37,896 bases of DNA, from contig JAAETI010000423.1 in the NCBI GenBank assembly GCA_024228555.1, positions 1 through 37,896 on the forward strand, given 5' to 3'. The position numbers were made by a program, and so were the translations under genes. Shown in pieces: positions 4,913 to 37,595 of this stretch. Position 1 is the first letter of the stretch. Each line of letters starts with the position of its first letter. Under the pieces are notes generated by a model. The model ran no database searches. It was not told the DNA's origin and saw only the letters and a list, made by a program, of their open reading frames with translations. The DNA comes from a bacterium. Lineage in GTDB: Bacteria; Actinomycetota; Acidimicrobiia; Spongiisociales; UBA5794.

Positions 4913-4955
4913 GGCCTTCCCTTCCATCGAACAGCACTGCAATCACCTGGACGGT

Positions 4956-5005
4956 CCGTATCGTATTGATATACAATCCAAAAAGCAAGACATATCGTCT
5001 CGTAA
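4956..5005. promoter_or_regulatory. Operator-promoter region between kinase-flippase and TetR 1
   Basis: CCGTATCGTAT (4956-4966) is followed after exactly 18 bases by a 21-base element starting GCAAGAC and ending CGTCTCGTAA (4985-5005). The same two elements, in the same order and spacing, lie upstream of TetR 2 on the other strand (6253-6302), with one mismatch in the 21-mer. The element is 20 bases from the GTG of TetR 1 and 44 bases from the flippase ATG, so it could control both. Confidence 0.7.
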
Positions 5006-5024
5006 AGCGGGAAGGTCCACAACT

Positions 5025-5618: not shown

Positions 5619-5646
5619 ATGTTGACTATTCCGGCTGTCCACCGGC

Positions 5647-6234
5647 TCAAGAGGAGGCGATGAGGAGATCGATGATGCTTCGAGAAAGGCCCTCAGTCTG
5701 CGGTTGCGCCACGACCAGCGTACGTTGGAACACCGTGCCCACTATGACATCAAGTGTGAATACGATGTCGGTGTCGGCGGGAAGATCGCCGCGGTCAATG
5801 CCGCGTTGGATGGCTTCGACCGCTGATTGACGCCAGGGCATGACCGCGGTTTCCCGGAAGATGCGAGCCATGTTCGGGTCATCGTCGAGGTTGGCAATTG
5901 CCGCGAATATCACTATCCCGGCAAGCCGGTCAGAGAAGGTCTCGATGAGCTGCTGGGTGGCAATGAGTAGGTCGCCGCGGGTGTCACCGGTGTCCGAAAC
6001 AACGCCAATAGCGATGTGGTCGGCGACCGCCTCGAGCACTAGTTCGCCTTTCGTCGACCACCACCGATAGACCGTGGCCTTACCTGCGCCTGCTCTGGCG
6101 GCGACGCCTTCGATGGTGAGCCGCGAATACCCGACTTCGTCAAGCATTTCTCGGGTCGCTTGGAGAATGGATTGTTGGATTCTGGGATCGCGTGGGCGGC
6201 CGCGCTGAGCTTTGGAAGTAGCCGGAGTTGTCAT
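5647..6234 (-). CDS. TetR-family regulator 2
   Basis: This 195-residue paralogue of TetR 1 has the same QRGRPRD lead-in and helix-turn-helix (GVAARAGAGKATVYRWWSTK). The C-terminal half is also alignable with TetR 1 (for example GDLPADTD...GTVFQRTLVVAQP against GDLTKGLD...GTIFQRVLVIPEP). It is divergent from the MmpL transporter, so it is probably that gene's repressor and regulates itself. Its operator-like elements at 6253-6302 match those of TetR 1, so the two regulators may cross-bind. The ligand is unknown; TetR regulators beside MmpL genes usually sense the exported lipid or drug. Confidence 0.92.
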   Translation of the reverse strand: MTTPATSKAQRGRPRDPRIQQSILQATREMLDEVGYSRLTIEGVAARAGAGKATVYRWWSTKGELVLEAVADHIAIGVVSDTGDTRGDLLIATQQLIETFSDRLAGIVIFAAIANLDDDPNMARIFRETAVMPWRQSAVEAIQRGIDRGDLPADTDIVFTLDVIVGTVFQRTLVVAQPQTEGLSRSIIDLLIASS

Positions 6235-6252
6235 GCTGAAGGCATCCTACTA

Positions 6253-6302
6253 TTACGAGACGATAAGTCTTGCATTCAAACCCCGTAACAGATACGATAC
6301 GG
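6253..6302. promoter_or_regulatory. Operator-promoter region between TetR 2 and MmpL
   Basis: The 21-base element at 6253-6273 and the 11-base element at 6292-6302, 18 bases apart, are the reverse-strand counterparts of 4985-5005 and 4956-4966. The 21-mer differs at one base and the 11-mer is identical. They lie 19 bases from the TetR 2 start and about 50 bases from the MmpL start. Confidence 0.7.
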
Positions 6303-6350
6303 TGCGGTTGATATATGGAGTGAGTAAGTTCATCTCCGGGAGGGACCGTC

Positions 6351-9272
6351 ATGAGTGTGACCGAGAAGGATCCTGCTAACCACCGACCCCGCGATGACCG
6401 AAGCGGTTTGGGCATCTTCGAATGGGTTGGACGCCATGTTCGGTCCCTGGTCACCGTGATCATCATTGTCTCGGTGGCCCTCGGGATCGCCGGTTTTGTC
6501 AGTTTCTTGCTGGAAGAGGATCGTGACGGTCCGGCGTTCAACCCGGGTGGTGAGATCTATGAGATTGCGGACCGTGTCGATGAACTCTTTGACCCGGCGA
6601 CTGAGGTCTTGACTGCGATCTTCTTCGTTGAGGCCAAGGACCCGGTCAACGGCGACGTGTTGACCCGCGTCGGTCTATCCGAGTTTCTCAGCAACACCTC
6701 CGCGCTGCTAGCCGATGCTGACTCGCAGTCTCACCTCACCTCAACGTTTGACAGTGATTTGGGCGTGCCCGTTGATGGAGTGTTCTCGATCGCTCATGCC
6801 ATCGATGACCATCTGACCGGAGGGCTTGCGGCTGCAAACGACGCCGACGTAAAACGCGCTCTATCAGAGATCCTGGACGACAACAGCCCGCAGGCGACGT
6901 TGCGAGCTACTTTGTCGCAGCTCACCACCTCGACCGTCGAGGACATCGATGGCAACACCGTGACCGTATGGCGGTCACCGGCGTTCCAGGCCGAGGTTGC
7001 CTACCTGCGTGAATCATTCGAGATCGAAGATCCTGACACCGACAACGAGGACTTCATCGAGTATCAGTACGCCTTTGAGGGCCAGACCTGGCTTCGAGAA
7101 GCCCAGACCATCCTGCGCGGCGACCAGCAGAACATAAGCGTGCTCGGGCTAGCTATTGACGGGATCCTCACTGAAGAGGAGCAATCGGAGGCTGCTGGGC
7201 CATTCATTATGGGTGCGATCGTCTTGATCGTGCTCTTGGTTGGGGCTCTGGTGAGATCGTATTGGGCGTCGGCGATCGTCGCTACCGGACTCAGTGTCAC
7301 CTTCTTGGCCTACAGCGGGATCGTCGTGTTGATTGGTTTGAAGAACAGCATCCTGCTGACCTTCATCATTCCCATTGCTGTCTTGAGCTTCGGTGTGGAC
7401 TTCTTCATCCATGGCTTCGGGCGCTGCCGCGAGGAACAGGAAGCCGGCACGGCACCGCTTCGGGCATATCCCTTGGGTATGTCGGCGGTCGCGGCGGCTG
7501 TGCTCCTGGCGGTGACGACATCGGCTGCTGCGTTTCTCTCCAATGTGTCGTCGGGCATCGAAGCGATCCGCGACTTTGGTATTGCCGCTGCCATAGGCCT
7601 GCTGCTTGCTTACCTGTTCCTAGGTGTCATCGGTCCAAGAGTGGTTCTAGGCATCGAGCAACGGGTCGGGCCACCACCCCGATTCCATGGTCCCCGTTTG
7701 GGCGCCAAGGTCGGGTTCGTTGTGATGAGCCTGATCGGTGGCCTGACAGTGACCTTCTCGGTGATACTGGTTCCGTTCGGGGTATTCCTGCTTATCGTCG
7801 TCTTCATCCCGCTGGTCATCTACTTGCCCTACCGTCGGGTGATTCGTCGCAATCGGAAGGCCGCTGAGAACGGGCGCCAGCTCGACCATCGCATTCGTGG
7901 TGCCGGCCACGGCCTCAAGAGCGCCGGGTCGGTGGTGCACTTCGTGGCTCGTTGGCGGGTCGTAACTGTGCCGGTGACCGTGGTCTTGGCCCTCCTAGGG
8001 CTGTACGGGTTCACCCAGGTCGAGGAGAAGTTCAAACCAAGCGATTTCACGTCCTCCAAGACCGACTTCATCAAGAGCCTCAATGCGCTGCAGCTCCACT
8101 ACGGAACCAGCACCGGCACCAACGCCTATCTATACGTCGAGGGCGACCTGACCGAACCCGCCACGCTTGCAGCAATGGACACCGTGATCGTCGATGTCGA
8201 TGCTGCCGACGCCAAGCGGACGTCGGAGGGAGGCGTTCCGTTCCTGGCCCGCGACTTCGACGGGACAACGGTGACAGCCAGCAATGCCACTGACATCGTC
8301 CGCGCCGCGTTGGCCTCACCAGACGCGGTGACAGCAATCGAAGCCTCCACCGGTGTCACGCTGGAGGAGGGATCCGACGGCTTGCCAGAAGGTCCGAACC
8401 AGGTGGCTGCCATCTACCAATATGCATCCGAAAGCGGCATTCCCGGCCCGGGCGGGACACTGCTGTGGCGCCCCGAGGATGTCCAGGCCGCCGTGCATGT
8501 CGGCGACGGATTCCAGGCGACCCGTGTCGACGTCGCCCTCGCCACTGTCTCCGATCTGGAGCTGATGGCGGCGGCACGCGACGCCCTCCAGGAAGCCAGT
8601 GTCGGGTTCGACTCGGCGACCCCTGAATTCGCCAGTGTCGGCCTTTCCGGCGACGCGATAGCGGACGAGGACACCCTCACCGCGTTTACCGCGTCGATGG
8701 TGCTGTCGCTGCTCATCGCGTTGGGTCTGTGTGCGCTGATTGCGTGGGCGTTCATGCGATCACTGAAATATGCGCTGGTGTCGGTGATCCCGATCCTGTT
8801 GGTGGTCGGGTGGGTCTACCTATTCATGTACCTCTATGGGTACTCGATCAACCCGGTCACGGCAACTATCGCAGCTATCGCAGTTGGCGTCGGCGTCGAC
8901 TTTGCAATGCACTTCACCATGAGGTTCCGTGAGGAATTTGTCGGGGAACCAAGCCGCTTCCCAGCCCTTCGCCGAGCTGGAGAGGGTACCGGTGGAGCGC
9001 TTGTGCTGTCAGCGCTCACCTCCATGGGTGGGTTCCTCGTAATGTCGAGGGCGCCCATGCCGGTGTTCGCCGACTTCGGATTCCTCACCGCAGTGATGAT
9101 CTTCTTCTCATTGGTCGTAGCGCTGTTGGTGCTGCCCAGTCTGCTGCTGCTAGTCACCCCCTCCCGGCAAGGTGAGGAACGACAAGAGGTGCTCGAAGCG
9201 CTGCGCAGCTTTGAGGACAGTGAGTACGACCCACACAGCCGTAGGACGGCGCTAGAAACCGCCCATCACTAA
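6351..9272 (+). CDS. MmpL/RND-family transporter
   Basis: This 973-residue protein has the two-fold RND plan. There is a first membrane helix near 33-55, a large extracytoplasmic domain, a helix bundle at about 280-480, a second lone helix near 537-555, a second extracytoplasmic domain, and a second bundle at about 780-940. Each bundle carries the proton-relay-type motif GVDFxxH (FGVDFFIHGF with D350, GVDFAMHF with D850), exactly 500 residues apart. This matches the MMPL/patched-like RND exporters, which move lipids or hydrophobic compounds out of the cytoplasmic membrane using the proton gradient. GGGAGG precedes the ATG at 6351. The ion-channel gene follows after three bases, and TetR 2 is divergent. 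The substrate cannot be read from the sequence. Confidence 0.9.
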   Translation: MSVTEKDPANHRPRDDRSGLGIFEWVGRHVRSLVTVIIIVSVALGIAGFVSFLLEEDRDGPAFNPGGEIYEIADRVDELFDPATEVLTAIFFVEAKDPVNGDVLTRVGLSEFLSNTSALLADADSQSHLTSTFDSDLGVPVDGVFSIAHAIDDHLTGGLAAANDADVKRALSEILDDNSPQATLRATLSQLTTSTVEDIDGNTVTVWRSPAFQAEVAYLRESFEIEDPDTDNEDFIEYQYAFEGQTWLREAQTILRGDQQNISVLGLAIDGILTEEEQSEAAGPFIMGAIVLIVLLVGALVRSYWASAIVATGLSVTFLAYSGIVVLIGLKNSILLTFIIPIAVLSFGVDFFIHGFGRCREEQEAGTAPLRAYPLGMSAVAAAVLLAVTTSAAAFLSNVSSGIEAIRDFGIAAAIGLLLAYLFLGVIGPRVVLGIEQRVGPPPRFHGPRLGAKVGFVVMSLIGGLTVTFSVILVPFGVFLLIVVFIPLVIYLPYRRVIRRNRKAAENGRQLDHRIRGAGHGLKSAGSVVHFVARWRVVTVPVTVVLALLGLYGFTQVEEKFKPSDFTSSKTDFIKSLNALQLHYGTSTGTNAYLYVEGDLTEPATLAAMDTVIVDVDAADAKRTSEGGVPFLARDFDGTTVTASNATDIVRAALASPDAVTAIEASTGVTLEEGSDGLPEGPNQVAAIYQYASESGIPGPGGTLLWRPEDVQAAVHVGDGFQATRVDVALATVSDLELMAAARDALQEASVGFDSATPEFASVGLSGDAIADEDTLTAFTASMVLSLLIALGLCALIAWAFMRSLKYALVSVIPILLVVGWVYLFMYLYGYSINPVTATIAAIAVGVGVDFAMHFTMRFREEFVGEPSRFPALRRAGEGTGGALVLSALTSMGGFLVMSRAPMPVFADFGFLTAVMIFFSLVVALLVLPSLLLLVTPSRQGEERQEVLEALRSFEDSEYDPHSRRTALETAHH

Positions 9273-23801: not shown

Positions 23802-25463
23802 ATGAACGCTGAACTTCGTGCCCTCGGCGAGAGCTACTGGCAAGACGAACTCGCCGCTTCGCCCCTCCAGGCATTGATGCTCGGTATCCACGACTACGAC
23901 GAGGAGATGGACGACGCATCCCGTGAAGCAGAGGATGCCCGCATCGCATCGCTGCGTTCATACGCCGCCAAAGCCGCTGCCTTCGACCCCGATGAACTAA
24001 CCGCCGATGAGCGAATCACTCGTGATGTGATGATCTTTGAGTCGGGCACGCGCGCCGACGTGCTCGAGATGCGAGAAGCCGAACTCGAAGTCAACCACGC
24101 GATGGGCCTCCAAGCCATGCTTCCGGTGCTGTTCCCCCAGTTTCCAATCGACGAGCCCGAGCATGCCAAAGCAATGCTGGTCAAGTATCCGAAGTTCGGC
24201 ACGCTGCTTGACCAGATGACCGACCGGCTTCGCAGCGGCGTCGCCAACGGCCGCACTCCCATGGCCAGCACAGTAGAAAAGACGGTCGAGCAGCTCGACG
24301 CCCTTCTCGCTGCGGACCCGGCCGCCAGCGTGTTTCTGACCACCCGGAGTCCGGCAGCATTCAGTGAAGAGGAAACAGCGGCGTGGCGTGGTTCGCTGGC
24401 AGCCATCGTTCAAGACACCATCTACCCCGCGTTGCAACGGTCCCGCGACTACATCGCAGAGCATGTGCTGCCGGCGTCTCGCGGAGACGACATCCCGGGC
24501 ATCTGTCATCTCGAAGGCGGTGAGGAGTGGTATCGCCGGGTAATCAAGCGACACACCTCGGTCGATATGACAGCCGAGGAAATCCACGAAATCGGGCTCG
24601 ATCAGATCCGCAAGCTCGATGAGGAATACCGCGAGCTCGGCGCTGAGGTTCTCGGCACATCTGACCTGAAGGAGATCTACGCCCACCTTCGCGATGACCC
24701 CGAACTCCACTTCGAGACCGGCGAAGAGGTCCGCGCCGCTTCCGAGGTTGCACTAGCCAAGGCCAAAGCAACGATGGGCGACTGGTTTGGTCGTCTCCCG
24801 CAGGCGGACTGCTTTGTCCAGGAAACACCATCAGGGCCCACTGCTTTCTACTTCCCGCCGGCCACAGACGGATCCCGCCCGGGCACGTTCTTCGTGAACA
24901 CGAGTGACCCTGCGTCGTGGGGCCGCTACGAGATCGAGGCGATCGCCTATCACGAAGGTATCCCCGGGCATCATCTCCAGCTCGCTATCTCCGGCGAACT
25001 GGCCGATGTCCCCGAATTCCGCAAGCACGCCGCAGTCACGGCGTATGCCGAAGGCTGGGGTCTCTACACCGAGCGGCTTGCCGACGAGATGGGGATGTAC
25101 AGCGGACCGCTGGAGCGGATGGGGATGCTGTCGGCCGACTCGATGCGGGCTGGCCGTCTTGTCGTCGATACCGGCCTCCATGCCAAAGGGTGGTCACGAC
25201 AGCAGGCGATCGACTTCATGGTCGAGAACTCACCGCTGCATCTGGGAACAATCGAACCCGAGATCGACCGATACATCGGTCTTCCAGGCCAGGCGCTTGC
25301 CTACATGATCGGGCGTCTCGAAATCATGCGGATGCGCGCCGAAGCCGAAGAGACGATGGGTGATCGCTTCGACATCAAGGGCTTCCACGACACGGTGTTG
25401 TGCTCCGGCCTGGTTCCCCTGGGCACCCTCGATCGCATGATCAAAGAGTGGGCGGCCACCTAG
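23802..25463 (+). CDS. DUF885 family protein 1 (HExxPGHH metallopeptidase-like)
   Basis: This 553-residue protein carries the DUF885 signature YHEGIPGHHLQL (H384, E385, H390/H391), a probable metal site. GWGLYTERLADEMG and AGRLVVDTGLHAKGWSRQQA follow, and IDRYIGLPGQALAYMIGR lies near the end. Members are thought to be zinc metallopeptidases or related hydrolases; few are characterised. There is no signal peptide, so it is probably cytoplasmic. AGGAG precedes the ATG. A paralogue lies at 28652-30325, with a surface-protein gene and a small gene between them, which looks like a duplication followed by insertion or rearrangement. Confidence 0.85.
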   Translation: MNAELRALGESYWQDELAASPLQALMLGIHDYDEEMDDASREAEDARIASLRSYAAKAAAFDPDELTADERITRDVMIFESGTRADVLEMREAELEVNHAMGLQAMLPVLFPQFPIDEPEHAKAMLVKYPKFGTLLDQMTDRLRSGVANGRTPMASTVEKTVEQLDALLAADPAASVFLTTRSPAAFSEEETAAWRGSLAAIVQDTIYPALQRSRDYIAEHVLPASRGDDIPGICHLEGGEEWYRRVIKRHTSVDMTAEEIHEIGLDQIRKLDEEYRELGAEVLGTSDLKEIYAHLRDDPELHFETGEEVRAASEVALAKAKATMGDWFGRLPQADCFVQETPSGPTAFYFPPATDGSRPGTFFVNTSDPASWGRYEIEAIAYHEGIPGHHLQLAISGELADVPEFRKHAAVTAYAEGWGLYTERLADEMGMYSGPLERMGMLSADSMRAGRLVVDTGLHAKGWSRQQAIDFMVENSPLHLGTIEPEIDRYIGLPGQALAYMIGRLEIMRMRAEAEETMGDRFDIKGFHDTVLCSGLVPLGTLDRMIKEWAAT

Positions 25464-25495: not shown

Positions 25496-28318
25496 GTGGC
25501 CCGTGCCAGGTTCCGTCGATTCCGCTCTTTGACTCAGACCCTCGTAGCCTGCGGCCACGATTACAGATTGGGTTCTGAGTTGATAAGAGCGAGACACGTA
25601 GCACTGGTAGCGGCACTCGCGGTGGTCGTCACGGGGGGAATGACGTCCTTGAGTCATGCCGCCTCCGACACGCCGGAGCCTCTCACGGTGCCTCTCGGTG
25701 TTCAGTGTGAGTATTTCGCACAGATCTCATCCGACTCGCGCTATCTCATTTGCGTCGCTGACACCGATTCTGTAGATGGAGGGGAGCTGTACTCGGTCCC
25801 GATCGATGGGAGCGCCCCTCCGATTCGTCTCAATCCTGTCCGACCGGGTCCCGAGGACGTTGTGTCGTGGGTCGACATCACGCCCGATGGATCAACGGTC
25901 CTCTTTGCTCACGGCGAATCAATCGGCTCCGACGAGTTCAACAATCTGGCCATCTATTCGGTTCCAATCGGTGGCGGCGAGGTGACCTCGCTGACGCCGG
26001 ATATCGAGGTTGGTGGCTTCATGTGGAAACCGGAGATGTCCCCCGACGGATCCGCGGTGGTCTATTGGTGGTGGGACACATTGAAGGGCGGCTTGTATGC
26101 CGCGGCCACAGACGGCAGTGGCGCCACCCTGATAGGAACCCCATCACGACCGCAGTTGCTTTTCGAACCAGACCCAATGATCTCTCCCGATTCGAACTGG
26201 GTTCACTACCACACCAACACAGGTACATCTCAACTGGAGGCTGCCGAAGCCCTGCCCATCACAGGTGGTTCCCCCTTCGTCCTGACCGGCGACGGCACCG
26301 GCTTGTTGGAGACAGGTTGGTTCACCCCTGATTCGCAGTACTACGTCTTTCTTGGCACCTACGAGTCTGGTGTGTACGAACTGTTCGCCACACCGATCGC
26401 CGGCGGGGATCGGGTGAAACTAAACCAAGAGCTTGCCGCGGGCCAGCGTCTAGGAAACGCTATCCATATCCTGCCCGATTCCTCTGGTGTGGTCTTCTCT
26501 GTAATTGGGGACAGTTCTTCAATACCTATTTGGTATCGCGTGCCCATCAGTGGAGGTACTCCGACAGTTCTCTCGGACGCCATCTTTGAAATTCAAGTGA
26601 CGGCCGACTCGTCCTATGTCGTACTCGACAGCGTCGAAATCAACGCTCACTCTCTTGACGACGGGACTGTCACGCGACTCGGAGACATGGGTACCTTCCT
26701 GGTTTCGCCCGACTCGTCAAACGTATGGCTATGGCAAAGGCAACGCCACCAGGACACAGAAGCTCAGCTGTACACCGTTCCCATCAACGGTGGTGAGCTG
26801 ACTCTTCATCCTGGGACGACAGCAACGGCGGATGCAAATAGATTTGGATACCTTGAGAATCCATTCCAGGAGATCACGCCAGATTCCTCCCGATACCTCT
26901 ATGTTGAGGACGTCGACAATGACTCGACGCGGGAGCTCGTGATGGCTTCGGTCTATGGCGGACAGGCACATACCATCGCCACCGGAATCGAGATCATCAC
27001 CTATGAGGCTCCACTCCTCACCGACAGAGACATCGCGATGCTCGTGACACCGGACTCCAGCCGGGTCATCTACCAAGCGGATCCGGCTGGCAATGGATTG
27101 CAGTTCTATTCGTCGCTGCTGACGCGGTATCCGGAAACCGCCGATTCGAGTTGGCAGATCGAGGAGAACGCATCGATTGGGTCGGCTGTCGGCGTGGTCA
27201 CTGGGTCTGACCCGGACAAGGACCCGCTGACATTCAGCATCACCGGCAACAGTGGCCCATTTGCGGTCGAACCTGCAACGGGCGAGGTCACGGTGGCGAC
27301 CTCTCTCGACTACGAGGTCGCTTCGCAGCACGAGCTTTCGGTTGAGGTCAGCGATGGCATTGTGTCAGCAACTGCCTTGATCACGATCGAGGTGGGCAAT
27401 GTCAACGACAACCCGCCGGTTGGTGGTGACCTCGCCGCATCGCTTCCCGAGGACGCACCTTCCGGGACCACGATCGGGACCATCAGCGACGCTGATCCTG
27501 ATGGTGATGAGGTCACCTTCTCCTTGTCGGAGCCGAGCAGCTTGTTTGCTGTTGATGATGATGGGGTGGTGACTCTGGTTGATTCGTTGGACTACGAGAC
27601 AGCAACCAGTCACCAGTTGACGGTCAATGTGTCTGATGGGATCTTCACCACACCCGCCACGGTGACCGTAAACGTAACCGAGGTCAACGAACCGCCACCC
27701 TCGACAACGACAACGACAACATTGCCTTCAACAACCACCACGGCACCGCCCCCACCGCCGCACTCTGACTTCGGAGATGTCCCCGGTACCGATGTTTTTG
27801 CTGGTGACATCGCCTGGCTCGCCACCCAGGGCATCACCCAAGGCTGTAACCCGCCAGTCAACGACCAATTCTGCCCGAAGGCCTACGTCACCCGCGGCCA
27901 GATGGCAGCCTTCCTCCACCGTGCTCTTGGCGACAGCCTCACCCCCGGGTCACCAGTCGCGTTCACCGACGACAACGACTCTGTGTTCGAATCCGACATC
28001 GAATGGCTCGCCGCTGCCGGTATCACCACAGGCTGTAACCCGCCAACGAACGACCGGTACTGCCCGGAGGCCTATGTGACCCGTGGCCAGATGGCAGCGT
28101 TCTTGCATCGTGCCCTCGCAGACACCCTCCCCCTTGGACCACCAGTCACCTTCATCGACGACAACAGCTCTGTGTTCGAGACAGACATCGAATGGCTCGC
28201 CGCAACCGAAATCACCAAAGGCTGTAACCCGCCAACGAACGACCGGTACTGCCCCGACACGTATGTCACCCGTGGCCAAATGGCAGCCTTCCTCCACCGA
28301 GCACTTGCGGAGGGTTAG
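25496..28318 (+). CDS. Secreted propeller-cadherin-SLH surface protein
   Basis: The longest frame has 940 residues from GTG 25496. A TTG at 25580 would place the signal peptide (HVALVAALAVVVTGGMTSLS, cleavage near HAA) at the N-terminus and may be the true start. Residues about 60-545 form a TolB/WD40-like propeller with repeated SxDSxxVxY-type strands. Two cadherin-like repeats follow (about 552-640 and 640-735; SLDYEVASQHELSVEVSDG and SLDYETATSHQLTVNVSDG). A Thr/Pro linker (about 737-755) and three SLH repeats complete it; each SLH repeat has GCNPP...CP and VTRGQMAAFLHRAL. The SLH end should anchor it to the cell wall. Nearly identical DNA around 28031 and 28223 shows that the SLH repeats are recent or homogenised. 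Confidence 0.85.
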   Translation: MARARFRRFRSLTQTLVACGHDYRLGSELIRARHVALVAALAVVVTGGMTSLSHAASDTPEPLTVPLGVQCEYFAQISSDSRYLICVADTDSVDGGELYSVPIDGSAPPIRLNPVRPGPEDVVSWVDITPDGSTVLFAHGESIGSDEFNNLAIYSVPIGGGEVTSLTPDIEVGGFMWKPEMSPDGSAVVYWWWDTLKGGLYAAATDGSGATLIGTPSRPQLLFEPDPMISPDSNWVHYHTNTGTSQLEAAEALPITGGSPFVLTGDGTGLLETGWFTPDSQYYVFLGTYESGVYELFATPIAGGDRVKLNQELAAGQRLGNAIHILPDSSGVVFSVIGDSSSIPIWYRVPISGGTPTVLSDAIFEIQVTADSSYVVLDSVEINAHSLDDGTVTRLGDMGTFLVSPDSSNVWLWQRQRHQDTEAQLYTVPINGGELTLHPGTTATADANRFGYLENPFQEITPDSSRYLYVEDVDNDSTRELVMASVYGGQAHTIATGIEIITYEAPLLTDRDIAMLVTPDSSRVIYQADPAGNGLQFYSSLLTRYPETADSSWQIEENASIGSAVGVVTGSDPDKDPLTFSITGNSGPFAVEPATGEVTVATSLDYEVASQHELSVEVSDGIVSATALITIEVGNVNDNPPVGGDLAASLPEDAPSGTTIGTISDADPDGDEVTFSLSEPSSLFAVDDDGVVTLVDSLDYETATSHQLTVNVSDGIFTTPATVTVNVTEVNEPPPSTTTTTTLPSTTTTAPPPPPHSDFGDVPGTDVFAGDIAWLATQGITQGCNPPVNDQFCPKAYVTRGQMAAFLHRALGDSLTPGSPVAFTDDNDSVFESDIEWLAAAGITTGCNPPTNDRYCPEAYVTRGQMAAFLHRALADTLPLGPPVTFIDDNSSVFETDIEWLAATEITKGCNPPTNDRYCPDTYVTRGQMAAFLHRALAEG

Positions 28319-28395: not shown

Positions 28396-28668
28396 ATGAT
28401 CTCGATCGAGCTGGCTCAGAAGCTGCGCGATGCGGGGTTGGAGTGGCTGCCCACTGAAGGCGACAGCTTCATGATCCCGGATCGTGATCTAGAGGACCAC
28501 GTATTTACCATCAGCGAAGAGACAGTTGAGGTGCATCGACTCACCGCTGGAAAACGCATCTCGTTCAACGGAGCGGTCGAGTGGGCACTTGACTCGATCA
28601 TGCATACGGAGGCGACCTCGCCGCTAGCGTTACTTCCAAGGAGGATCGCGCATGAACGTCGAGCTTGA
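28396..28668 (+). CDS. Small conserved actinobacterial protein (often mislabelled CpaE)
   Basis: This 90-residue protein reads MISIELAQKLRDAGLEWLPT, then DSFMIPDRDLEDHVFTISE and FNGAVEWALDSI. It matches a small actinobacterial family that databases often call pilus assembly protein CpaE without evidence. I recognise the pattern but know no function. Its end overlaps the start of the second DUF885 gene by 17 bases, so the two are probably translated from one message. Confidence 0.7.
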   Translation: MISIELAQKLRDAGLEWLPTEGDSFMIPDRDLEDHVFTISEETVEVHRLTAGKRISFNGAVEWALDSIMHTEATSPLALLPRRIAHERRA

Positions 28669-30325
28669 CCAACTCGCCCAGGACTACTGGGAATACGCGC
28701 TCAGCACATTTCCCACCGAGGCAATGCTGCTCGGCGACCACCGTTTCGATGCCGAGATGGAACAGTTCAGCCGTCAAGCCGAAGACGAACAGATCGCTGA
28801 GTTCGATCGTCTCGTAGCAGCCGCTAACGCCATCGAAGACGGTGTGCTGAATGCCGACGAGTTGATTACGAAAGCCGTTCTGATCGACGAAGCCTCCGGT
28901 CGTGCCAACGAGCTTCGCTCCCGGACCGCCGAGTACGATGCCAACCCGAGCTGGGGTATCCACGTTCTACTGCCGCAGTTTGCCGGTCAACTTCCGCTCA
29001 CCAAACCGGCCCACGCCGAGGCTCTCGTGGAGAAATGGACCAACGTCGGCCCGATGTTCGACCAGTTGATCCACCGCCTCCGCCAAGGTGTCGCCAGGGA
29101 CCGCACTCCACCGCGCACCTCAGTCGAGAAGAGCATCGCCCAGATCGACCAATACCTGGCGAGCCCGACCACGACCGACCCCTTCATCAATGTCCCCGCA
29201 CCTGAAGCGTTCACCCAAGAGCAAACCGAAGCTTGGCGAGACCGCCTCGCCCGCGTTGTCATTGACGTCATCCGGCCGGCGTACGAACGGTACCGCCACG
29301 AACTCAAGGAGGTCGTCCTACCGGTGTCCCGTCCCGAGGAGAAGACCGGGGTGCGCTGGCTGTCCGACGGCGAGGAGATCTATGCAAGGGCGATCCGTCG
29401 CCACACCTCGCTCGACCTGACCCCGCTGGAGATTCACAACATCGGCCTCGAAGAGATCGCCCGGCTGGAAGGCGAGTACCAGACGATGGGTGCGCAGGTG
29501 CTGGGGACATCCGATCTGAGCCAGATCTACGACAGGCTGCGCAACGATCCAGAGCTTCGCTTCGACGACAGTGAGCAAATCGTCGCCGCCGCCCAGGACG
29601 CAATGGACCGCGCCCGGACCGCGATCCCCAATTGGTTTGGCAGGCTCCCCCGAGCCGACTGCGTGATGGCTGAAATCCCTGAGGCCGGCGCTCAAGATGC
29701 TCCGATTGCGTACTACCTGCCGCCGGCAACCGACGGTTCGCGGCCTGGCACCTACTTCATTAACACGACCGAACCGACCACCCGCACCCGGTTCGAGTCT
29801 GAGGCGCTGGCGTTCCACGAGTCCATTCCCGGGCATCACCTGCAGCTGGCAATCGCCCAGGAACTCGAGGGAATCCCGGAGTTCCGCAAGCACGCATTGG
29901 TAACGGTGTACGTCGAAGGATGGGGTCTGTATACCGAACGGCTCGCCGACGAGATGGGGCTCTACAGCGGCCCACTGCATCGGCTGGGAATGCTCTCGTT
30001 CGACTCGTGGCGGGCCGGCCGGCTCGTTGTCGACACCGGCATGCATGCCCTGGGGTGGTCAAGACAGGAGGCGGTCGACTACCTAGTACAGAACTCGCCG
30101 CTGGCGCTAAACAACATCGAGAGCGAGGTCGAGCGATACATAGGGATGCCCGGCCAAGCTCTCGCCTACATGATCGGCCGCCGCGAGATCATGCGGCTTC
30201 GGGAGGAAGCGCAGACGACCATGGGTGGCAGGTTCGACATCAAGGGATTCCACGACACTGTGCTCGGATCCGGCCCGGTGCCGCTTGGAATCCTCGGTGA
30301 CCTCGTCAGGAAGTGGGCCTCCTGA
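28652..30325 (+). CDS. DUF885 family protein 2 (HExxPGHH metallopeptidase-like)
   Basis: This 557-residue protein is a clear paralogue of the protein at 23802-25463, matching it from the N-terminus (QDYWEYALSTFPTEAMLLGD against ESYWQDELAASPLQALMLGI) to the end. The metal-site motif is FHESIPGHHLQL (H389, E390, H395/H396), with GWGLYTERLADEMG conserved. There is no signal peptide. AAGGAGG lies before the ATG. Its stop at 30325 abuts the stop of the convergent AlbA_2 gene at 30326 with no gap, and no hairpin separates them. Confidence 0.85.
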   Translation: MNVELDQLAQDYWEYALSTFPTEAMLLGDHRFDAEMEQFSRQAEDEQIAEFDRLVAAANAIEDGVLNADELITKAVLIDEASGRANELRSRTAEYDANPSWGIHVLLPQFAGQLPLTKPAHAEALVEKWTNVGPMFDQLIHRLRQGVARDRTPPRTSVEKSIAQIDQYLASPTTTDPFINVPAPEAFTQEQTEAWRDRLARVVIDVIRPAYERYRHELKEVVLPVSRPEEKTGVRWLSDGEEIYARAIRRHTSLDLTPLEIHNIGLEEIARLEGEYQTMGAQVLGTSDLSQIYDRLRNDPELRFDDSEQIVAAAQDAMDRARTAIPNWFGRLPRADCVMAEIPEAGAQDAPIAYYLPPATDGSRPGTYFINTTEPTTRTRFESEALAFHESIPGHHLQLAIAQELEGIPEFRKHALVTVYVEGWGLYTERLADEMGLYSGPLHRLGMLSFDSWRAGRLVVDTGMHALGWSRQEAVDYLVQNSPLALNNIESEVERYIGMPGQALAYMIGRREIMRLREEAQTTMGGRFDIKGFHDTVLGSGPVPLGILGDLVRKWAS

Positions 30326-31458: not shown

Positions 31459-31735
31459 AAGTCCCCTCGTGGGAGGACGGGGCTGGAACGACCGCAGAGA
31501 GGACCAGACTGGGAGGGGGAAGACGCAACCCGCGGCCGCACACGCTCTCACCCCCCTCGATCGGCCTCCGGCCAACCGATCCCCCCATCAAGGGGGGATT
31601 GCCCTGCAAAGCAGCCCTCCCCTCGTGGGAGGGGGAATAGGCGCGGCACGCGGCCGCACACGCTCTCACCCCCCTCGATCGGCCTCCGGCCAACCGATCC
31701 CCCCATCAAGGGGGGATTGCCCTGAGCAGCAGACC
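31459..31735. repeat. Repeat array A: hairpin-rich 76-bp direct repeats
   Basis: Two identical 76-bp copies (31531-31606 and 31649-31724), 118 bp apart, each hold two hairpins. The first is a GATCGG...CCGATC stem with inner GGCC pairs. The second is an ATCCCCCC/GGGGGGAT stem. Between the copies lies a third hairpin, CCCTCCC-loop-GGGAGGG, and a GGGAGGGGGAAGACG word occurs on the left. The same building blocks occur at 37161-37556. The DUF559 gene begins 37 bases after this array. Confidence 0.85.
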
Positions 31736-32165
31736 TCTTGAATCAATCTTGGCCATCCGGCATCTTCGGAGCATGCGGATCAAACCTCGGCTGACCAAGT
31801 ACGCACGACGGAATCGTGCGGACCCAACCAAATCAGAGTCAATCATCTGGGCAGACCTGCGCGGCCAGCAGCTCGGCTACAAGTTCAAGAGGCAGCAGCC
31901 GATCGGCCCCTACATCGTTGACTTCGTTTGCTACTCCAAGAAACTGATAGTTGAACTCGACGGCTGGACCCACGGGCTTGCCCAGAACTTCGATCGCGAC
32001 GACGCCCGCCAAGTATGGCTGGAATACCGCGGCTTCACTGTCCTCCGCTTCACCGACGAGGAAGTCATGGAAGACCGAGAAGCAGTCGGCGACGCCATCT
32101 TTGCCACGCTGGAATTGCTCTGAAGCGAGAGACCAGATCGGGAGGGGGATTTCGGCCGCCCGCAC
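31531..32165. mobile_element. Candidate DUF559-containing repeat element
   Basis: Left of the DUF559 gene lies a unit ending in the GGGGGGATT hairpin. Right of it (32126-32172) the sequence GAGAGACCAGATCGGGAGGG, followed by CCGCACTCGTCA, continues the same repeat unit as seen uninterrupted at 37161-37314. The gene therefore appears to sit inside one unit. Whether it moves is inference; no target duplication was identified. Confidence 0.4.
31773..32123 (+). CDS. DUF559 endonuclease-like protein (Vsr/PD-(D/E)xK fold)
   Basis: This 116-residue protein has the DUF559 plan: an N-terminal RNRADPTKSESIIWADLRG, then GYKFKRQQPIGPYIVDFVCY, then KLIVELDGWTH with E, D and H as probable catalytic residues, and RGFTVLRFTDEEVMED. 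The family is related to very-short-patch-repair-type nucleases, but its function is not established. The ATG at 31773 is chosen because it begins the family-conserved part; a TTG at 31749 adds eight residues. Hairpin-rich repeats flank it on both sides. Confidence 0.85.
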   Translation: MRIKPRLTKYARRNRADPTKSESIIWADLRGQQLGYKFKRQQPIGPYIVDFVCYSKKLIVELDGWTHGLAQNFDRDDARQVWLEYRGFTVLRFTDEEVMEDREAVGDAIFATLELL

Positions 32166-32340: not shown

Positions 32341-33753
32341 TCATTCGCAATCCCCGTAGGTCACGCCTTCACCGTCGCCACCGGCGATATCGGCCGGCAG
32401 CACCGGTGTCCCGTCGGTGAAGAAGTTGCACGCAAAGTGGTGCGGGCCGGGAGAGTTCAACAGAGCCGCCCGGTTCACTCCCGCCTCGATCGTGTTGTTG
32501 ACGACAGTGAGCTCAGCGAGGTTGTAAGCACGCAGCGTGTACCAACCGTGAGCGGAGATGTAGTTACCGATGACGTCAATATGCATCTCGGAGTTGTTGG
32601 TCGCAAAGATGAGGTCGGTCACACCAATACCGTCGGGGATCTCATCGAAGTAGTTGTACGAGATCTCAAAGTCACCTGTCGTGACCTCAAACTCCCCAAG
32701 CTGGAAACCATCGAGGTGCGTACTGCTATCACCAAGGGGGTCGCGCCGGTAGTTGCGGGTGAAGGTGAACCCATCGAGCTCACCATCAGCAAAAACCGTG
32801 TCATCTCCACCCACCAACTCATTGTCGGCGATGATCAGGTTGGTGATGTCGTTGACCTTGAAGAGCTTGGTGTCGCGCAACCCGTTGATTTGGGAATGGT
32901 GGACATTGAGCCCGGTACGCACGATGCTCTCGTCGGCCTTGATCGGGTAGTAGCCGCCGCAGTTGATGACCACATTCCGGATGGTGACATTGTCTGCCTC
33001 GATCGTCACACAACCGTCAACAATCACGTTCTCCAGCAACGCCCCCTCCTCGGTCAGCTTCTGGCTTCCGACATGAGTCGTCGGTGCAGGGGCGATCACA
33101 CCCACTCCAATGGTGATACCGACATCATCAGGCGTCACATACTCGCTGGGGAGCGGTGGGGGCGACAACGGAGTGAGGCCGAGCGCCCGCACCAGGAACG
33201 ATGCCATTTGCGCCCGCGTCACCGGGTCGTCCGGGCAGAATCGGCTATTCGTCGGCGGGTTACAGCCGACGGTCACCCCTTGTTCGGCGAGTGCGTTGAT
33301 GTCTGGTTGGTGTACCGAACCGGAGTCGTCATCGAACCAATCTGTCGGTGACGGGGCAAAATCAAACGACCGAACCAACATCGTTGCCATCTCGGCGCGG
33401 GTAATCGACCGGATCGGACAGAACTGCGTGTTCGCCGGTGGATTGCACCCAAGCGTGATCCCTGCAGCAGCGACAGCATTGATATCGGCCTCGAAAACGA
33501 TGCCATCGTCATCGTCAAAGAAATCACGAGTGATGGCTGGAAGACTCAACGCCCGGCTGAGGAATGCGGCCATTTCGCCGCGGGTCACCGAGGAGTTCGG
33601 GCAGAACTCGTCGTTGGTCGGCGGGTTGCAGCCCCTGGTTATTCCCTCCGCCGCGATTGCCTCGATATCGGCCTCATGTACCGAACCGTCGTCATCGGTG
33701 AAGGTGCCGCCCGGCAACAGAGCAAGCAGGAGCGAAAGTGCGGTGAGGAGCAT
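32341..33753 (-). CDS. SLH-anchored right-handed beta-helix surface protein
   Basis: A short hydrophobic start (MLLTALSLLLALLPGG) acts as a signal. Three N-terminal SLH repeats follow (about 17-70, 73-127 and 131-187), each with GCNPP...FCP and VTRxxMAxFLxRAL-type ends. After a short Pro-rich linker, residues about 205-460 form a right-handed parallel beta-helix with pectate-lyase-like stacked motifs (VTIEADNVTIRNVVINCG, LNVHHSQINGLRDTKLFKV, ITNLIIADNELVGG, LTVVNNTIEAG). Such domains usually bind or cleave polysaccharides, but no catalytic set is obvious. The protein is predicted to be cell-wall anchored like the one at 25496-28318, with the SLH units at the opposite end. No strong ribosome binding site is seen at 33753. 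Confidence 0.82.
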   Translation of the reverse strand: MLLTALSLLLALLPGGTFTDDDGSVHEADIEAIAAEGITRGCNPPTNDEFCPNSSVTRGEMAAFLSRALSLPAITRDFFDDDDGIVFEADINAVAAAGITLGCNPPANTQFCPIRSITRAEMATMLVRSFDFAPSPTDWFDDDSGSVHQPDINALAEQGVTVGCNPPTNSRFCPDDPVTRAQMASFLVRALGLTPLSPPPLPSEYVTPDDVGITIGVGVIAPAPTTHVGSQKLTEEGALLENVIVDGCVTIEADNVTIRNVVINCGGYYPIKADESIVRTGLNVHHSQINGLRDTKLFKVNDITNLIIADNELVGGDDTVFADGELDGFTFTRNYRRDPLGDSSTHLDGFQLGEFEVTTGDFEISYNYFDEIPDGIGVTDLIFATNNSEMHIDVIGNYISAHGWYTLRAYNLAELTVVNNTIEAGVNRAALLNSPGPHHFACNFFTDGTPVLPADIAGGDGEGVTYGDCE

Positions 33754-33886: not shown

Positions 33887-34276
33887 ATGGATTTTGACAG
33901 AAGTGACCTCAAGCAGCGGCTCTCCCCTCTGCAGTACAGAGTGACCCAAGAGGCCGGCACCGAGCAGGCGTTCACCGGTGATTATTGGGATACCAAGGAC
34001 CCGGGGACCTACCGCTGCGTGGTCTGCGACGCTGAGCTCTTCTCAAGTGAAACGAAGTACGACTCCGGTTCAGGTTGGCCAAGCTTCTACAAAGCGCTTG
34101 ATGACAACGCCGTCAATCGTATCGAGGATCGCAGTCTCGGCATGGTTCGCATCGAGGTGACCTGTGCCAACTGTGACGCCCACCTGGGTCACATCTTCCC
34201 CGACGGACCGCAGCCAACGGGTGAGCGATATTGTATGAACTCAGCATCAATGAAGCTGGATCGCAAGACCGACTGA
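33887..34276 (+). CDS. msrB: Peptide methionine-(R)-S-oxide reductase MsrB
   Basis: This 129-residue enzyme reduces methionine-R-sulfoxide in proteins. The zinc-binding pairs are C44/C47 (CVVC) and C93/C96 (CANC), the GSGWPSF motif is at 61-67, and the catalytic cysteine is C116 in RYCMNSASM. The length and motif order are those of the cytosolic single-domain form. GGAG lies six bases before the ATG. The Rrf2 regulator follows after 31 bases on the same strand, and the oxidase genes come next, so this repair enzyme sits in a redox-stress cluster. Confidence 0.95.
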
Positions 34277-34307: not shown

Positions 34308-34697
34308 GTGAGACTTGAACTAGCAAGAAAGACCGATCTCGCGATAAGGGCCATGCGTGCCCTTGGCGCGGCAGGGGACCGCATTCCCGGCCACCAGCTT
34401 GCCGAGATCATCGGCGCCACAGCCCCGTTTGTTTCCCAAGTGGTCCACCCACTGGTGCAGCGGGGCTGGCTCGATTCCAAACCGGGCCCCTCGGGCGGGT
34501 ACGGCCTCGCCGTCGACCCCCAAACCATCACAATCCTTGATGTCATCGAGCTTATCGAAGGCCCAATCGACAACGGTGTGTGCGTCCTGGTTGGCGGCCC
34601 GTGTGGTGAAGATCGCTGCTCGGTGCATGAGGCTTGGACCGACGGTCGCACGGAACTTCGGGCTGCATTCGCCAAGGTGAGCGTCGTCCAGGAGTGA
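34308..34697 (+). CDS. Rrf2-family regulator with Fe-S cysteines (NsrR-like)
   Basis: This 129-residue winged-helix protein contains LAIRAMRALGAAGDRIPGHQ, then LAEIIGATAPFVSQVVHPLV for the helix-turn-helix and SGGYGL for the wing. Three cysteines, C92, C99 and C104 (spacing x6 and x4), lie where Rrf2 members such as NsrR and IscR bind an Fe-S cluster. In NsrR this cluster senses NO. The position between msrB and an NO-reductase-like oxidase supports NO or redox sensing, but the ligand is inferred. GTG at 34308 is the only start keeping the family N-terminus. Confidence 0.85.
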   Translation: MRLELARKTDLAIRAMRALGAAGDRIPGHQLAEIIGATAPFVSQVVHPLVQRGWLDSKPGPSGGYGLAVDPQTITILDVIELIEGPIDNGVCVLVGGPCGEDRCSVHEAWTDGRTELRAAFAKVSVVQE

Positions 34698-34740
34698 TCT
34701 GATCCCACCGGTTTCTCTCATCTTTGAAAGACCCGCCTAA

Positions 34741-34771
34741 ACCTCTAGTCTTTCACTGTAGATATAGAGGT
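34741..34771. promoter_or_regulatory. Inverted repeat upstream of the oxidase operon
   Basis: ACCTCTA (34741-34747) and TAGAGGT (34765-34771) are exact inverted repeats with a 17-base AT-rich spacer. The dyad lies between the Rrf2 stop and the subunit II start and is a candidate site for the adjacent Rrf2 regulator. It could also contain the operon promoter. Confidence 0.5.
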
Positions 34772-34851
34772 CCGGTGAGTTTGGCGGTTGAAGCCTGCCA
34801 CACAATCTGGGCCACTTGCACGTCACTCTGAAGGGAGCATTAGTACCTGCA

Positions 34852-35433
34852 ATGGTCGATTCCACAACCGTTCTGTGGGGCCAAACCATCGTGTACTCGC
34901 TGTATGTCGTCGCCATCCTGGTTGTTATGGGTGTCTTCACGTACAACATCACGAGGGACGGCAAGCCCCCCACTGTGAAGGACAAGCTCTTCTATACGTT
35001 TGCCGGGTTCTTGGTGGTCCTCGGTATGTCGCTACACGTGGTGACGTACAACACGATCCCCTGGGTCCCGACCGATGTTCATCGTGGCGATATCGAGGCC
35101 GACAAGGAGTTTGCGATCAACGTTGCCGATCACGAGTTCCAGCTGCCCGAAGCTCGTTTGATGATCGACTGCGAAGACACCGTGCTCTTCAACGTCACCT
35201 CATCCGACCTCACCTATGGGTTCGGGCTCTTCCGCCAGGACAATTCGATGGTGTTCCAGATGCAGGTCGGCCCCGGCCGTGACAACGAGATCATTTGGGA
35301 GTTCCACAAAAACGGTGTCTACTCGATCCGTTCTACCGAGTACTCCGGTCCCCTCGGCTATCAGATGATCGTCAAGGACGCCGTTGAGGTTTCGGGCTGC
35401 GACGTAGCTGCAGGCGAAGGAGGTGCCAAGTGA
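34852..35433 (+). CDS. Heme-copper oxidase subunit II-like, CuA site lost
   Basis: From the ATG at 34852 this is a 193-residue protein with two membrane helices (about 11-32 and 46-66) and a cupredoxin domain, the normal plan of subunit II. The CuA loop, canonically C-x3-C-x3-H-x2-M, reads STEYSGPLGYQM at 161-172. Both cysteines are Ser (S161, S165), the His is Gly (G169), and only the Met (M172) and the E163/G166 framework remain. The upstream CuA His falls on Y122 (SSDLTYGF). The protein therefore should not bind CuA or take electrons from cytochrome c in the usual way; quinol or another donor is possible. AAGGGAG lies upstream at long spacing. Its stop overlaps the subunit I start. Confidence 0.8.
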   Translation: MVDSTTVLWGQTIVYSLYVVAILVVMGVFTYNITRDGKPPTVKDKLFYTFAGFLVVLGMSLHVVTYNTIPWVPTDVHRGDIEADKEFAINVADHEFQLPEARLMIDCEDTVLFNVTSSDLTYGFGLFRQDNSMVFQMQVGPGRDNEIIWEFHKNGVYSIRSTEYSGPLGYQMIVKDAVEVSGCDVAAGEGGAK

Positions 35434-37079
35434 CCTTCAAGGACACTCTTATCGACGGCAACGAAAGCGCCTTCGATCACAAGACGATGACACCGATGCA
35501 GAAGCTGACCTTGCGCTTTGTCATCATCGGCATCGTCTACTACGCATTTGCTGCCATCGAAGGCATGCTCATGCGTATCTATCAGGTGGACCCTGTGCCG
35601 TTCATCGAGGACGGAGTCATCCCGCTAGCTGGGATCGATCAGTACTTCGGGATCCTCACCGCACATCCGCTGGTCGGGATCTTCGGATCCACCTACTTGC
35701 TGGTGTTCGGTGCGTTCCTGTTCCTGGTGCCCTTCCTGATGAAGAAGCCGCTGTGGAGCTTCAAGGCAGCCAACTGGACCTTGTGGACGATCGCCGGCGG
35801 AACCTTCATCTTCTGGGCTGATGGTTTCCTGAGCCACTACGCCCCGCTGTACACGTTGTACTGGCCGCTCCCGGCGGACTTTGATCAGTTCCATCCACTC
35901 AGTGGTGCGATCTTCATCACCGGTATTGCGCTGGTGATGGTTGGTACTGCTCTGTTTGTGGTCAACATCTTCAAGACGATCACCTATACACCTGAGGGCT
36001 TCGAAAAGGTCGACGGCAAGGCCTACTTGAAGTCGGCGCTCGGCGTGACCGGCTTCAAGAACCTGTGGAAGGATCGCAAGCGGCAGAAGGAACACCTGGT
36101 CGATCTGCCGGTGGCGGCGATCGCCCGCGGCACCGTCGACACGGCGCTCAATGCAGGCATCATCCTGTTCACCGGTGTGCTGATCCTCGTCTACATGGTT
36201 GCCGAGCTGTTCGGGACTTCGCTGGAAACGACGACAGTCGATGCCTTGTTGTACAAGAACTGGTTCTGGTGGGGTCTTGATCTCATTGCCGACGGTCTTG
36301 TCCTGATCTTTGTTGCCGGTACCTGGTACCTGATGGCAAGCCTGATCACGGGCAAGCGGGTCTACATGCAGAACATCGCCCGTGCCGCGCTGCTCGTCGA
36401 GCTCGTGGTGTCGTGGACGGTGTGGTCGCACCATCTGCTCTCGGATCAGGGTCAGCCGGCGATCCTCAAGATCGTCTCCGGCGAACTCGTCACCGCATTC
36501 GAGTTGATCACCCAGGGTCTGGCGTTCTTCATCACGCTGGCGACGTTGTGGAGCGCTCGCCCGTTGAAGCTGACGAACGAGCTGAAGTTCCTGCTTGGTG
36601 GTCTGCTCGGGTTCGCCCTTGCGGTCCCGGCCGGGATTCTGCAGGCCGATATCGGCCTCAACCGAGTGCTGCACAACACACAATGGGTTGTTGGCCCGCA
36701 TGTGCATGTGGCGATCCTGGTTGGTCTCACCATGACCTTGTACTCAGCGATCTACTACCTGCTGCCGGTGCTCACCAACGGTGCGAAGTTGTACAGCCAG
36801 AAGCTGGCCAACTTCCACTTCTGGGCGCACTTGGTCGGTGGTATCGGGATGGGTGCCTTCATGGGCATGGCCGGCCTCCAAGGCATGCTGCGCAGGACGC
36901 TGTATTTCGAAGGCGAGTACTTCATCTACATGTTCCTCGCCGCACTGAGCGGGGCGCTGCTCATCGCAGCGCTGCTGGCATTCCTCTACAACATCGTCAT
37001 GACTGTCGGCCTCAAGGGTGCCCTCGGCATCTTCCAGAAGTCAGACGGCGACGTAAGGGAACTCCTCCCCGTCGAGTAA
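35430..37079 (+). CDS. Heme-copper oxidase superfamily catalytic subunit with NOR-like, Asp-substituted active site
   Basis: This 549-residue protein has about 12 membrane helices. Low-spin heme ligands are H79 (TAHPLVGIFG) and H426, and the high-spin heme ligand is H424 (HNTQWVVGPHVH). Two active-site metal ligands are H334/H335 (WSHHLLSDQ). In helix VI, where oxidases have HPEVY and cNOR has H-x3-E, it reads GLDLIADG with D284 and D288. The spacings (50 residues from D284 to H334, 90 from H334 to H424) match cNOR (51 and 89). The cross-linked Tyr of oxidases and the K-channel lysine are absent. This points to NO reduction or another non-O2 reaction in a family with an Asp ligand. GTG at 35430 overlaps the subunit II stop as GTGA. 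Confidence 0.85.
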   Translation: MTFKDTLIDGNESAFDHKTMTPMQKLTLRFVIIGIVYYAFAAIEGMLMRIYQVDPVPFIEDGVIPLAGIDQYFGILTAHPLVGIFGSTYLLVFGAFLFLVPFLMKKPLWSFKAANWTLWTIAGGTFIFWADGFLSHYAPLYTLYWPLPADFDQFHPLSGAIFITGIALVMVGTALFVVNIFKTITYTPEGFEKVDGKAYLKSALGVTGFKNLWKDRKRQKEHLVDLPVAAIARGTVDTALNAGIILFTGVLILVYMVAELFGTSLETTTVDALLYKNWFWWGLDLIADGLVLIFVAGTWYLMASLITGKRVYMQNIARAALLVELVVSWTVWSHHLLSDQGQPAILKIVSGELVTAFELITQGLAFFITLATLWSARPLKLTNELKFLLGGLLGFALAVPAGILQADIGLNRVLHNTQWVVGPHVHVAILVGLTMTLYSAIYYLLPVLTNGAKLYSQKLANFHFWAHLVGGIGMGAFMGMAGLQGMLRRTLYFEGEYFIYMFLAALSGALLIAALLAFLYNIVMTVGLKGALGIFQKSDGDVRELLPVE

Positions 37080-37098: not shown

Positions 37099-37126
37099 GG
37101 GCTCCCTTGCCCCCGCAAGGGAGCCC
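37099..37126 (+). terminator. Terminator of the oxidase operon
   Basis: GGGCTCCCTTGC (37099-37110) pairs perfectly with GCAAGGGAGCCC (37115-37126) around a CCCC loop, 20 bases after the catalytic subunit stop. No T-run follows, which is common in high-GC actinobacteria. Confidence 0.75.
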
Positions 37127-37160
37127 CTGCGCGTTCCTCGAACGGAAGTAGATCACGTCT

Positions 37161-37556
37161 TCACCCCCCTCGAACGACCTTCGGTCGTCCGATCCCCCCA
37201 TCAAGGGGGGATTGCAGCGCAAGCAGCCCTCCCCTGGTGGGAGGGCGGGACTGGGAGTGAGCGGAGCGACCGACCAGACCGGGAGGGGGAAGAACCGCAC
37301 TCGTCACAGAAGGTGCTCACACCCTCACCCCCCTTCGTTCGGGCTCCAAGCAGCCCTCCCCTGGTGGGAGGGCGGGGCTGGGAGTGAGCGGAGCGACCGA
37401 CCAGACCGGGAGGGGGAAGAACCGCACTCGTCACAGAAGGTGCTTACACCCTCACCCCCCTCGAACGACCTTCGGTCGTCCGATCCCCCCATCAAGGGGG
37501 GATTGCAGCGCAAGCAGCCCGACACTGGTGGGAGGGACCGATCCGGGAGGGGGAAG
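37161..37556. repeat. Repeat array B: mosaic hairpin repeats
   Basis: A 69-bp unit occurs identically at 37161-37229 and 37452-37520. A 114-bp unit occurs at 37220-37333 and 37347-37460 with two mismatches. The hairpins inside are ACGACC-TTC-GGTCGT, ATCCCCCC/GGGGGGAT and GCCCTCCC-loop-GGGAGGGC. The same modules in the same order form array A near the DUF559 gene. There is no nuclease gene here, and short frames across the array are translations of repeats. Confidence 0.85.
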
Positions 37557-37595
37557 ACGTAAACGTGTCCTCCCCCGCTCCCTACCCTTCTCGGC

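Follow-up and report, generated by a model that had tools for sequence, protein, structure and literature searches.

An Asp-x3-Asp heme-copper protein paired with a CuA-less subunit II: a putative NO reductase of the gNOR kind

Three plus-strand genes fill positions 34308-37079 of the window, by which we mean the whole 37,896-nucleotide stretch of DNA that was analysed, and encode an Rrf2-family regulator followed by subunit II and subunit I of a heme-copper-superfamily protein. Helix VI of the catalytic subunit carries an Asp-x3-Asp (D-x3-D) motif, and subunit II has other residues in place of the CuA ligands. On balance, we favour the view that the pair forms a quinol-fed, two-subunit NO reductase of the gNOR (norGH) kind. 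The protein most likely belongs to a branch, abundant but seldom annotated, of an NO reductase family that has been proposed and whose activity has apparently not been measured in the literature examined.

The active site of the catalytic subunit

Subunit I (35430-37079) is a heme-copper catalytic subunit with a COX1 fold (PF00115, E 6.4e-54) of 549 amino acids, and its GTG start overlaps the stop codon of subunit II in the sequence GTGA. Its helix VI reads NWFWWGL-D284-LIA-D288-G. A first MAFFT display placed a gap in this helix, and the comparison with the B-type profile also misplaced it by a gap; the register was settled by a gap-free anchor, [D/N]-x8-W-x3-[H/D]-x3-[Y/E/Q/D], which is common to the families compared and aligns the helix with A-type DPLLYQHIFWFYSHPAVY, B-type DPQLSRTFFWFTGHPLVY, eNOR-like DPAWYRITWWGLGHMSQQ and qNOR NLAVAEYWRWWVVHLWVE. 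In the A-type, B-type, eNOR-like and qNOR proteins of the fetched genomes, a D or N anchor is followed by W at +9, the metal-B His at +13 and Tyr, Gln or Glu at +17. The window protein and its homologues, with zero gaps, have D at +13 (D284, 36279-36281), the position of the CuB/FeB histidine, and D at +17 (D288, 36291-36293), the position of the oxidase Tyr or NOR Glu. The preliminary description had set these two residues against the His and Glu of cNOR, and the ungapped anchor bears this out. Neither HPxVY nor the active-site Tyr of A/B oxygen reductases was present in helix VI under this anchor, HPEVY was not recovered by realignment, and the H-x3-E helix VI with a three-His FeB site that is typical of cNOR and qNOR was likewise absent, D-x3-D standing in its place.

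Residues D284, D288, the helix VII metal-B ligands H334 and H335 (36429-36434), E352, E358 (helix VIII, 36501-36503), H424 and H426 (high-spin and low-spin heme ligands of helix X; 36699-36707 with the residue before them) were invariant in all 84 homologues covering the site, and H79, the low-spin heme ligand of helix II (35664-35666), was present in 85/85, in a set with pairwise identities of 64-100% (median 77%). The two helix VII histidines and the heme ligands are thus kept, as first described. As judged from the alignments, this invariance argues that the loss of the His and the Tyr is a fixed trait of the family, with chance or assembly error excluded. E358 fell on the second active-site Glu of qNOR by two routes, MAFFT and profile comparison, and a proline (P423) is inserted before H424 in all homologues, a feature missed in the preliminary description. 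By alignment, metal site B would comprise H334, H335, D284 and D288 where oxidases have three histidines and a Tyr, and both sets of heme ligands are intact.

An AlphaFold model of subunit I (mean pLDDT 76, pTM 0.81) matched heme-copper catalytic chains with a best Z of 28.7 and an rmsd of 3.7 over 455 aligned residues. The fold-search matches listed were A-type oxidases and cbb3, and the absence of NOR chains among them is no evidence against an NOR. Similarly, the matches listed in a sequence search of the PDB covered part of subunit I and came from cbb3 and chains like it, with no NOR. No NCBIfam model passed its cut-off on the window's subunit I, the matching oxidase models scoring far below theirs; with standard models, such a protein would be annotated as a cytochrome c oxidase or go unnamed.

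Subunit II and the adjacent regulator

Subunit II (34852-35433) starts at an in-frame ATG at 34852, an earlier TTG at 34816 being a possible alternative, and consists, by alignment and model, of two transmembrane helices and a cupredoxin domain devoid of CuA ligands. When 24 subunit II sequences were combined into a profile, this aligned to the Thermus ba3-type CuA domains, in which the CuA set H...C-x3-C-x3-H-x2-M reads Y134 (35215-35217; Y122 from the ATG), S173, S177 and G181 (35332-35358) and M184 in the window protein. The Cys-Cys-His was replaced in 24/24 aligned sequences and the first CuA His position is a Tyr; Tyr134, Ser173 and Gly181 were invariant, and the second Ser position was Ala in one row. 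Counted from the ATG, the Ser-Ser-Gly corresponds to S161, S165 and G169, the residues to which the preliminary description had correctly assigned the Cys-Cys-His set. The model of subunit II showed the two helices and a beta-sandwich that matched CuA domains, including that of Thermus ba3, with a Z of about 11. By analogy with bo3-type quinol oxidases, in which CuA is also missing, quinol would be the natural electron donor.

The regulator gene (34308-34697; Pfam Rrf2, E 6.7e-22) encodes C92, C99, C104 and H107, and its product is likely to be an Fe-S sensor of the operon. These three Cys and the His were invariant in 16/16 linked Rrf2 proteins aligned, and were kept even though the window protein and those of the Bacteroidota loci are only about 20% identical. 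It had been called NsrR-like, and this holds in so far as the Rrf2 winged-helix domain and the three Cys plus His are common to NsrR/IscR-type regulators and the window protein. In contrast to these, however, it passed no equivalog model: the NsrR model gave 14.8 bits where its cut-off is 182, and the top scores came from generic Rrf2 and SUF-regulator models.

Between the regulator and subunit II lies a perfect dyad, TGAAAGAC-N15-GTCTTTCA (34725-34755), with one copy in the window and none in shuffled sequences. It may be a candidate operator, weakly so because the dyad was not found in the loci of six related actinobacterial carriers. An MsrB-type methionine sulfoxide reductase (SelR domain, 33887-34276) is encoded on the same strand, 31 bases before the Rrf2 gene, and the two genes possibly form one stress operon.

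Kinship and distribution of the D-x3-D family

Trees were built with A-, B- and C-type, qNOR, eNOR-like and HPVVY proteins from related genomes, the set containing no cNOR. The D-x3-D proteins formed a single clade (support 100/100) whose stem measures 1.7 changes per column (1.7-2.1 across trees). They fell outside qNOR and cbb3 (the C-type, in which the Tyr lies in a different helix), and grouped with the B-type and the B-like HPVVY sequences at 86/87 and with the HPVVY clade at 93/94; long branches limit the detail of these trees. When the HPVVY and eNOR-like rows were left out, the clade still fell outside qNOR and C, and the order of the A, B and D-x3-D clades was not resolved. Profile comparison of subunit I gave E 6.6e-22 for B-type, 1.5e-21 for A-type and 6.7e-4 for qNOR. 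Thus, while the residue positions noted in the preliminary description are those of cNOR, the kinship is not: the family lies outside the NOR clade, represented here by qNOR-like H-x3-E sequences, and nearer to the A- and B-type oxidases, for which reason the NOR-like acids, sitting on a branch apart from qNOR, probably owe their cNOR-like look to convergence. The HPVVY sequences (L036-L039, same phylum, family f69) constitute a distinct oxidase clade with HPVVY and WAHH-[ML]-Y motifs, and may possibly be the sister of the D-x3-D family with the Tyr still present.

A scan of genome contigs returned 317 relatives, of which the best 80, ranked by similarity and so biased to close ones in their taxa, were fetched. 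Going by MAG titles, these 80 were mostly Bacteroidales and Ignavibacteria, together with Actinomycetota, Anaerolineae, Acidobacteriota and Spirochaetes. Matches were found in 6/50 genomes of the window's own family and in 10/149 of the order of one Bacteroidota-titled carrier; the viral contigs searched yielded no relatives, and on the plasmids searched the only matches were remote oxidases with an identity of about 24%. Subunit II lay directly upstream of subunit I in 75/80 loci. An upstream Rrf2 gene was present in at least 49/80, a lower bound since gene calling missed some in GC-rich loci; none was seen directly upstream in the nearest relatives (L043 and L045, 90% identical). Beyond these two genes, the neighbours were unrelated, each found in few loci, and none was widely conserved.

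The gNOR (NorGH) family was reportedly proposed by Hemp and Gennis, and family HMMs for it are said to come from Murali et al. 2024; presumably the His-to-Asp ligand change also occurs in gNOR. It has been described as having an Asp at an active-site position (PMC8756737, Table A4), as a NorGH pair that oxidizes quinones and, with no proton channels, is non-electrogenic (PMC8906906), and that is present in Methylomirabilis (PMC6094997), and as a proposed B-family relative outside the biochemically characterized NORs (PMC11388526). The D-x3-D family shares the Asp at the Tyr position, D288, and the two-subunit composition with adjacent genes and a cupredoxin subunit II; the uniform loss of CuA matches the quinone-oxidizing trait, quinol use itself being our inference; and the B-family kinship is shared in both profile and tree, though A-type is equally close. 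All of the published gNOR traits that could be checked agree, namely the Asp in the active site, the subunit pair, the loss of CuA and the kinship with the B-family. From this comparison with published traits, we regard it as likely that the family is gNOR.

The same comparison bears on the best surviving alternative, an unpublished heme-copper family apart from gNOR, which has a two-His/two-Asp site and would still be an NO reductase or NO scavenger. It is favoured by the long stem on which the clade stands alone with full support, and by the hosts: Bacteroidales and Ignavibacteria dominate here, with Actinomycetota (Acidimicrobiia-titled relatives) and others besides, as against the Sulfurimonas, Sulfurovum, Persephonella and Methylomirabilis of the gNOR literature. 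However, the agreement with the published gNOR traits and the similarity-ranked choice of 80 relatives weigh on the other side, and we consider this alternative unlikely. A fuller version of it, in which an abundant non-gNOR family, independently of cNOR, exchanged the CuB His and the Tyr for Asp, built a heme/2-His-2-carboxylate iron site and now serves non-denitrifiers of several phyla as a quinol-fed NO scavenger, seems to us no less doubtful.

Compared with the other families, the D-x3-D proteins share with cNOR and qNOR the carboxylate at +4 in helix VI, the second Glu of helix VIII and the heme ligands, and with qNOR the pattern W-x-W-W-x2-[H/D]-L-x2-[E/D]-G. In contrast to these, they form a separate clade, have Asp for the FeB His, and possess a cupredoxin subunit II in place of a cytochrome c or the fused N-terminal domain of qNOR. 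The B-family (ba3-like) oxygen reductases were the best profile match and have in common the L-H-N-T-x-W pattern of helix X and the ba3-like cupredoxin domain, whereas the D-x3-D protein is without HPxVY and CuA and has D284, D288 and the inserted P423. Among the NOR-type B-family relatives eNOR, sNOR and nNOR, the first two also lack the Tyr, the position being Gln in eNOR and Asn in sNOR (PMC8756737). A B-type relative with an eNOR-like H-x3-Q helix VI (GHMSQQ; L165:150-1883) was found in a genome of the window's own family (G668) that also carries the D-x3-D enzyme, and is clearly distinct from the D-x3-D family.

Genomic context and proposed function

In the window's genome NosZ scored over the cut-off and neither NirK nor NrfA was found. 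Besides the D-x3-D protein, its set of four PF00115 proteins holds an A-type, a B-type and a CcoN-like protein that lacks the usual ligands; no other NOR was seen. Across the carriers, NosZ passed the cut-off in 6/48 (42 without) and NirK was found in 2/31 (29 without), while NrfA was not enriched, being present in 4/10 carriers against 62/139 non-carriers of the same order; a search for NirS was uninformative, its control giving no signal anywhere. No other NOR-type protein (H-x3-E or H-x3-Q) occurred among the PF00115 matches read in the six NosZ-positive carriers, the window's genome included, and an H-x3-E NOR was present in 6/30 carriers. In one of these six (G698, L157) the D-x3-D gene and a qNOR gene, at 3031-4704 and 4911-7160, are convergent and about 200 bases apart. 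The D-x3-D protein was the only PF00115 protein detected in 7/30 carriers, bearing in mind that MAGs may be incomplete.

The gene thus does not track denitrification or ammonification, and since it does not travel with NosZ, NirK or NrfA, the distribution favours NO detoxification over respiration, or else a role not yet known. It also counts against an NO reductase, as neither a producer of NO nor a consumer of N2O goes along with the gene, and some other terminal-acceptor role would also fit the carriers in which it is the sole heme-copper enzyme. The NO reductase, possibly quinol-fed, that had been put forward at the outset accordingly stands in part: the absent Tyr, the acids at NOR positions, the loss of CuA, the adjacent Rrf2 gene and the match to descriptions of gNOR all support it, as do the lack of another NOR-type protein among the PF00115 matches read in the NosZ-positive carriers and the qNOR gene next to it in one carrier; cNOR/qNOR kinship and a link to denitrification found no support. 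We nevertheless think it quite probable, with good confidence, that the D-x3-D family reduces NO.

The two His and the carboxylates would favour non-heme iron rather than copper as the metal of site B. Electrons would pass from quinol to the low-spin heme, and the enzyme, without the Tyr, would be inefficient with O2 and would turn two molecules of NO into N2O and water. Its expression may be under the control of the Rrf2 protein, acting as a sensor of NO or of redox state. The role is likely to be NO detoxification and not a step of full denitrification, because most carriers are without nirK and nosZ; in the window's own genome, where NosZ is present and no other NOR was detected, the enzyme may also supply N2O.

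A quinol oxidase reducing O2, for O2 detoxification, without the cross-linked Tyr would agree with the closest profiles being A- and B-type (E about 1e-21), with the loss of CuA that is typical of quinol oxidases, and with the carriers in which no second heme-copper enzyme was detected. However, the cross-linked Tyr is needed for O2 reduction in the known oxidase families and was not recovered in helix VI, two acids occupy the NOR Glu positions, and the linked Rrf2 looks to be of the Fe-S type; we therefore hold this to be improbable. A variant whose heme/non-heme iron site serves another substrate, as in NO dismutation or in N2O or peroxide chemistry, could be entertained, the site being unlike those of the compared families and the carriers showing no consistent denitrification genes, yet no linked genes indicate such a substrate and we rate it as highly unlikely. 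That the protein is a dead or non-catalytic heme protein, its binuclear site ruined and its role that of an electron sink or a sensor, is hardly credible, for although both metal sites are unlike those of oxidases and only the Rrf2 gene is a conserved neighbour outside the pair, the strict invariance of D284, D288, H334, H335, E358 and the heme ligands across several phyla at 64-100% identity points to strong selection on the site.

Should the gNOR-kind protein be a true NO reductase, N2O production and NO tolerance would be undercounted in Bacteroidota, Ignavibacteria and Actinomycetota, many carriers being without nirK or nosZ. Its two-His/two-Asp metal site would offer a natural test of the roles of the third histidine and of the Tyr/Glu in the superfamily, in a family that seems to have reached a NOR-like acid site on a branch apart from qNOR.

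The CcoN-like protein of the window's genome (L004, C145:58443-59648) joins a CcoN-like and a CcoO-like cytochrome c stretch in one frame, and its metal and heme ligands of the His-His and His-x-His type are missing; the host has ordinary A- and B-type oxidases. Within the window, two DUF885 paralogues (23802-25463 and 28652-30325) flank a cadherin/SLH surface protein (25496-28318), and a second SLH protein follows (32341-33753). An intergenic repeat, dispersed and roughly 60-180 bases long, occurs as tandem copies at 31462-31741 and 37120-37557 and has 43 matches in the window's genome.
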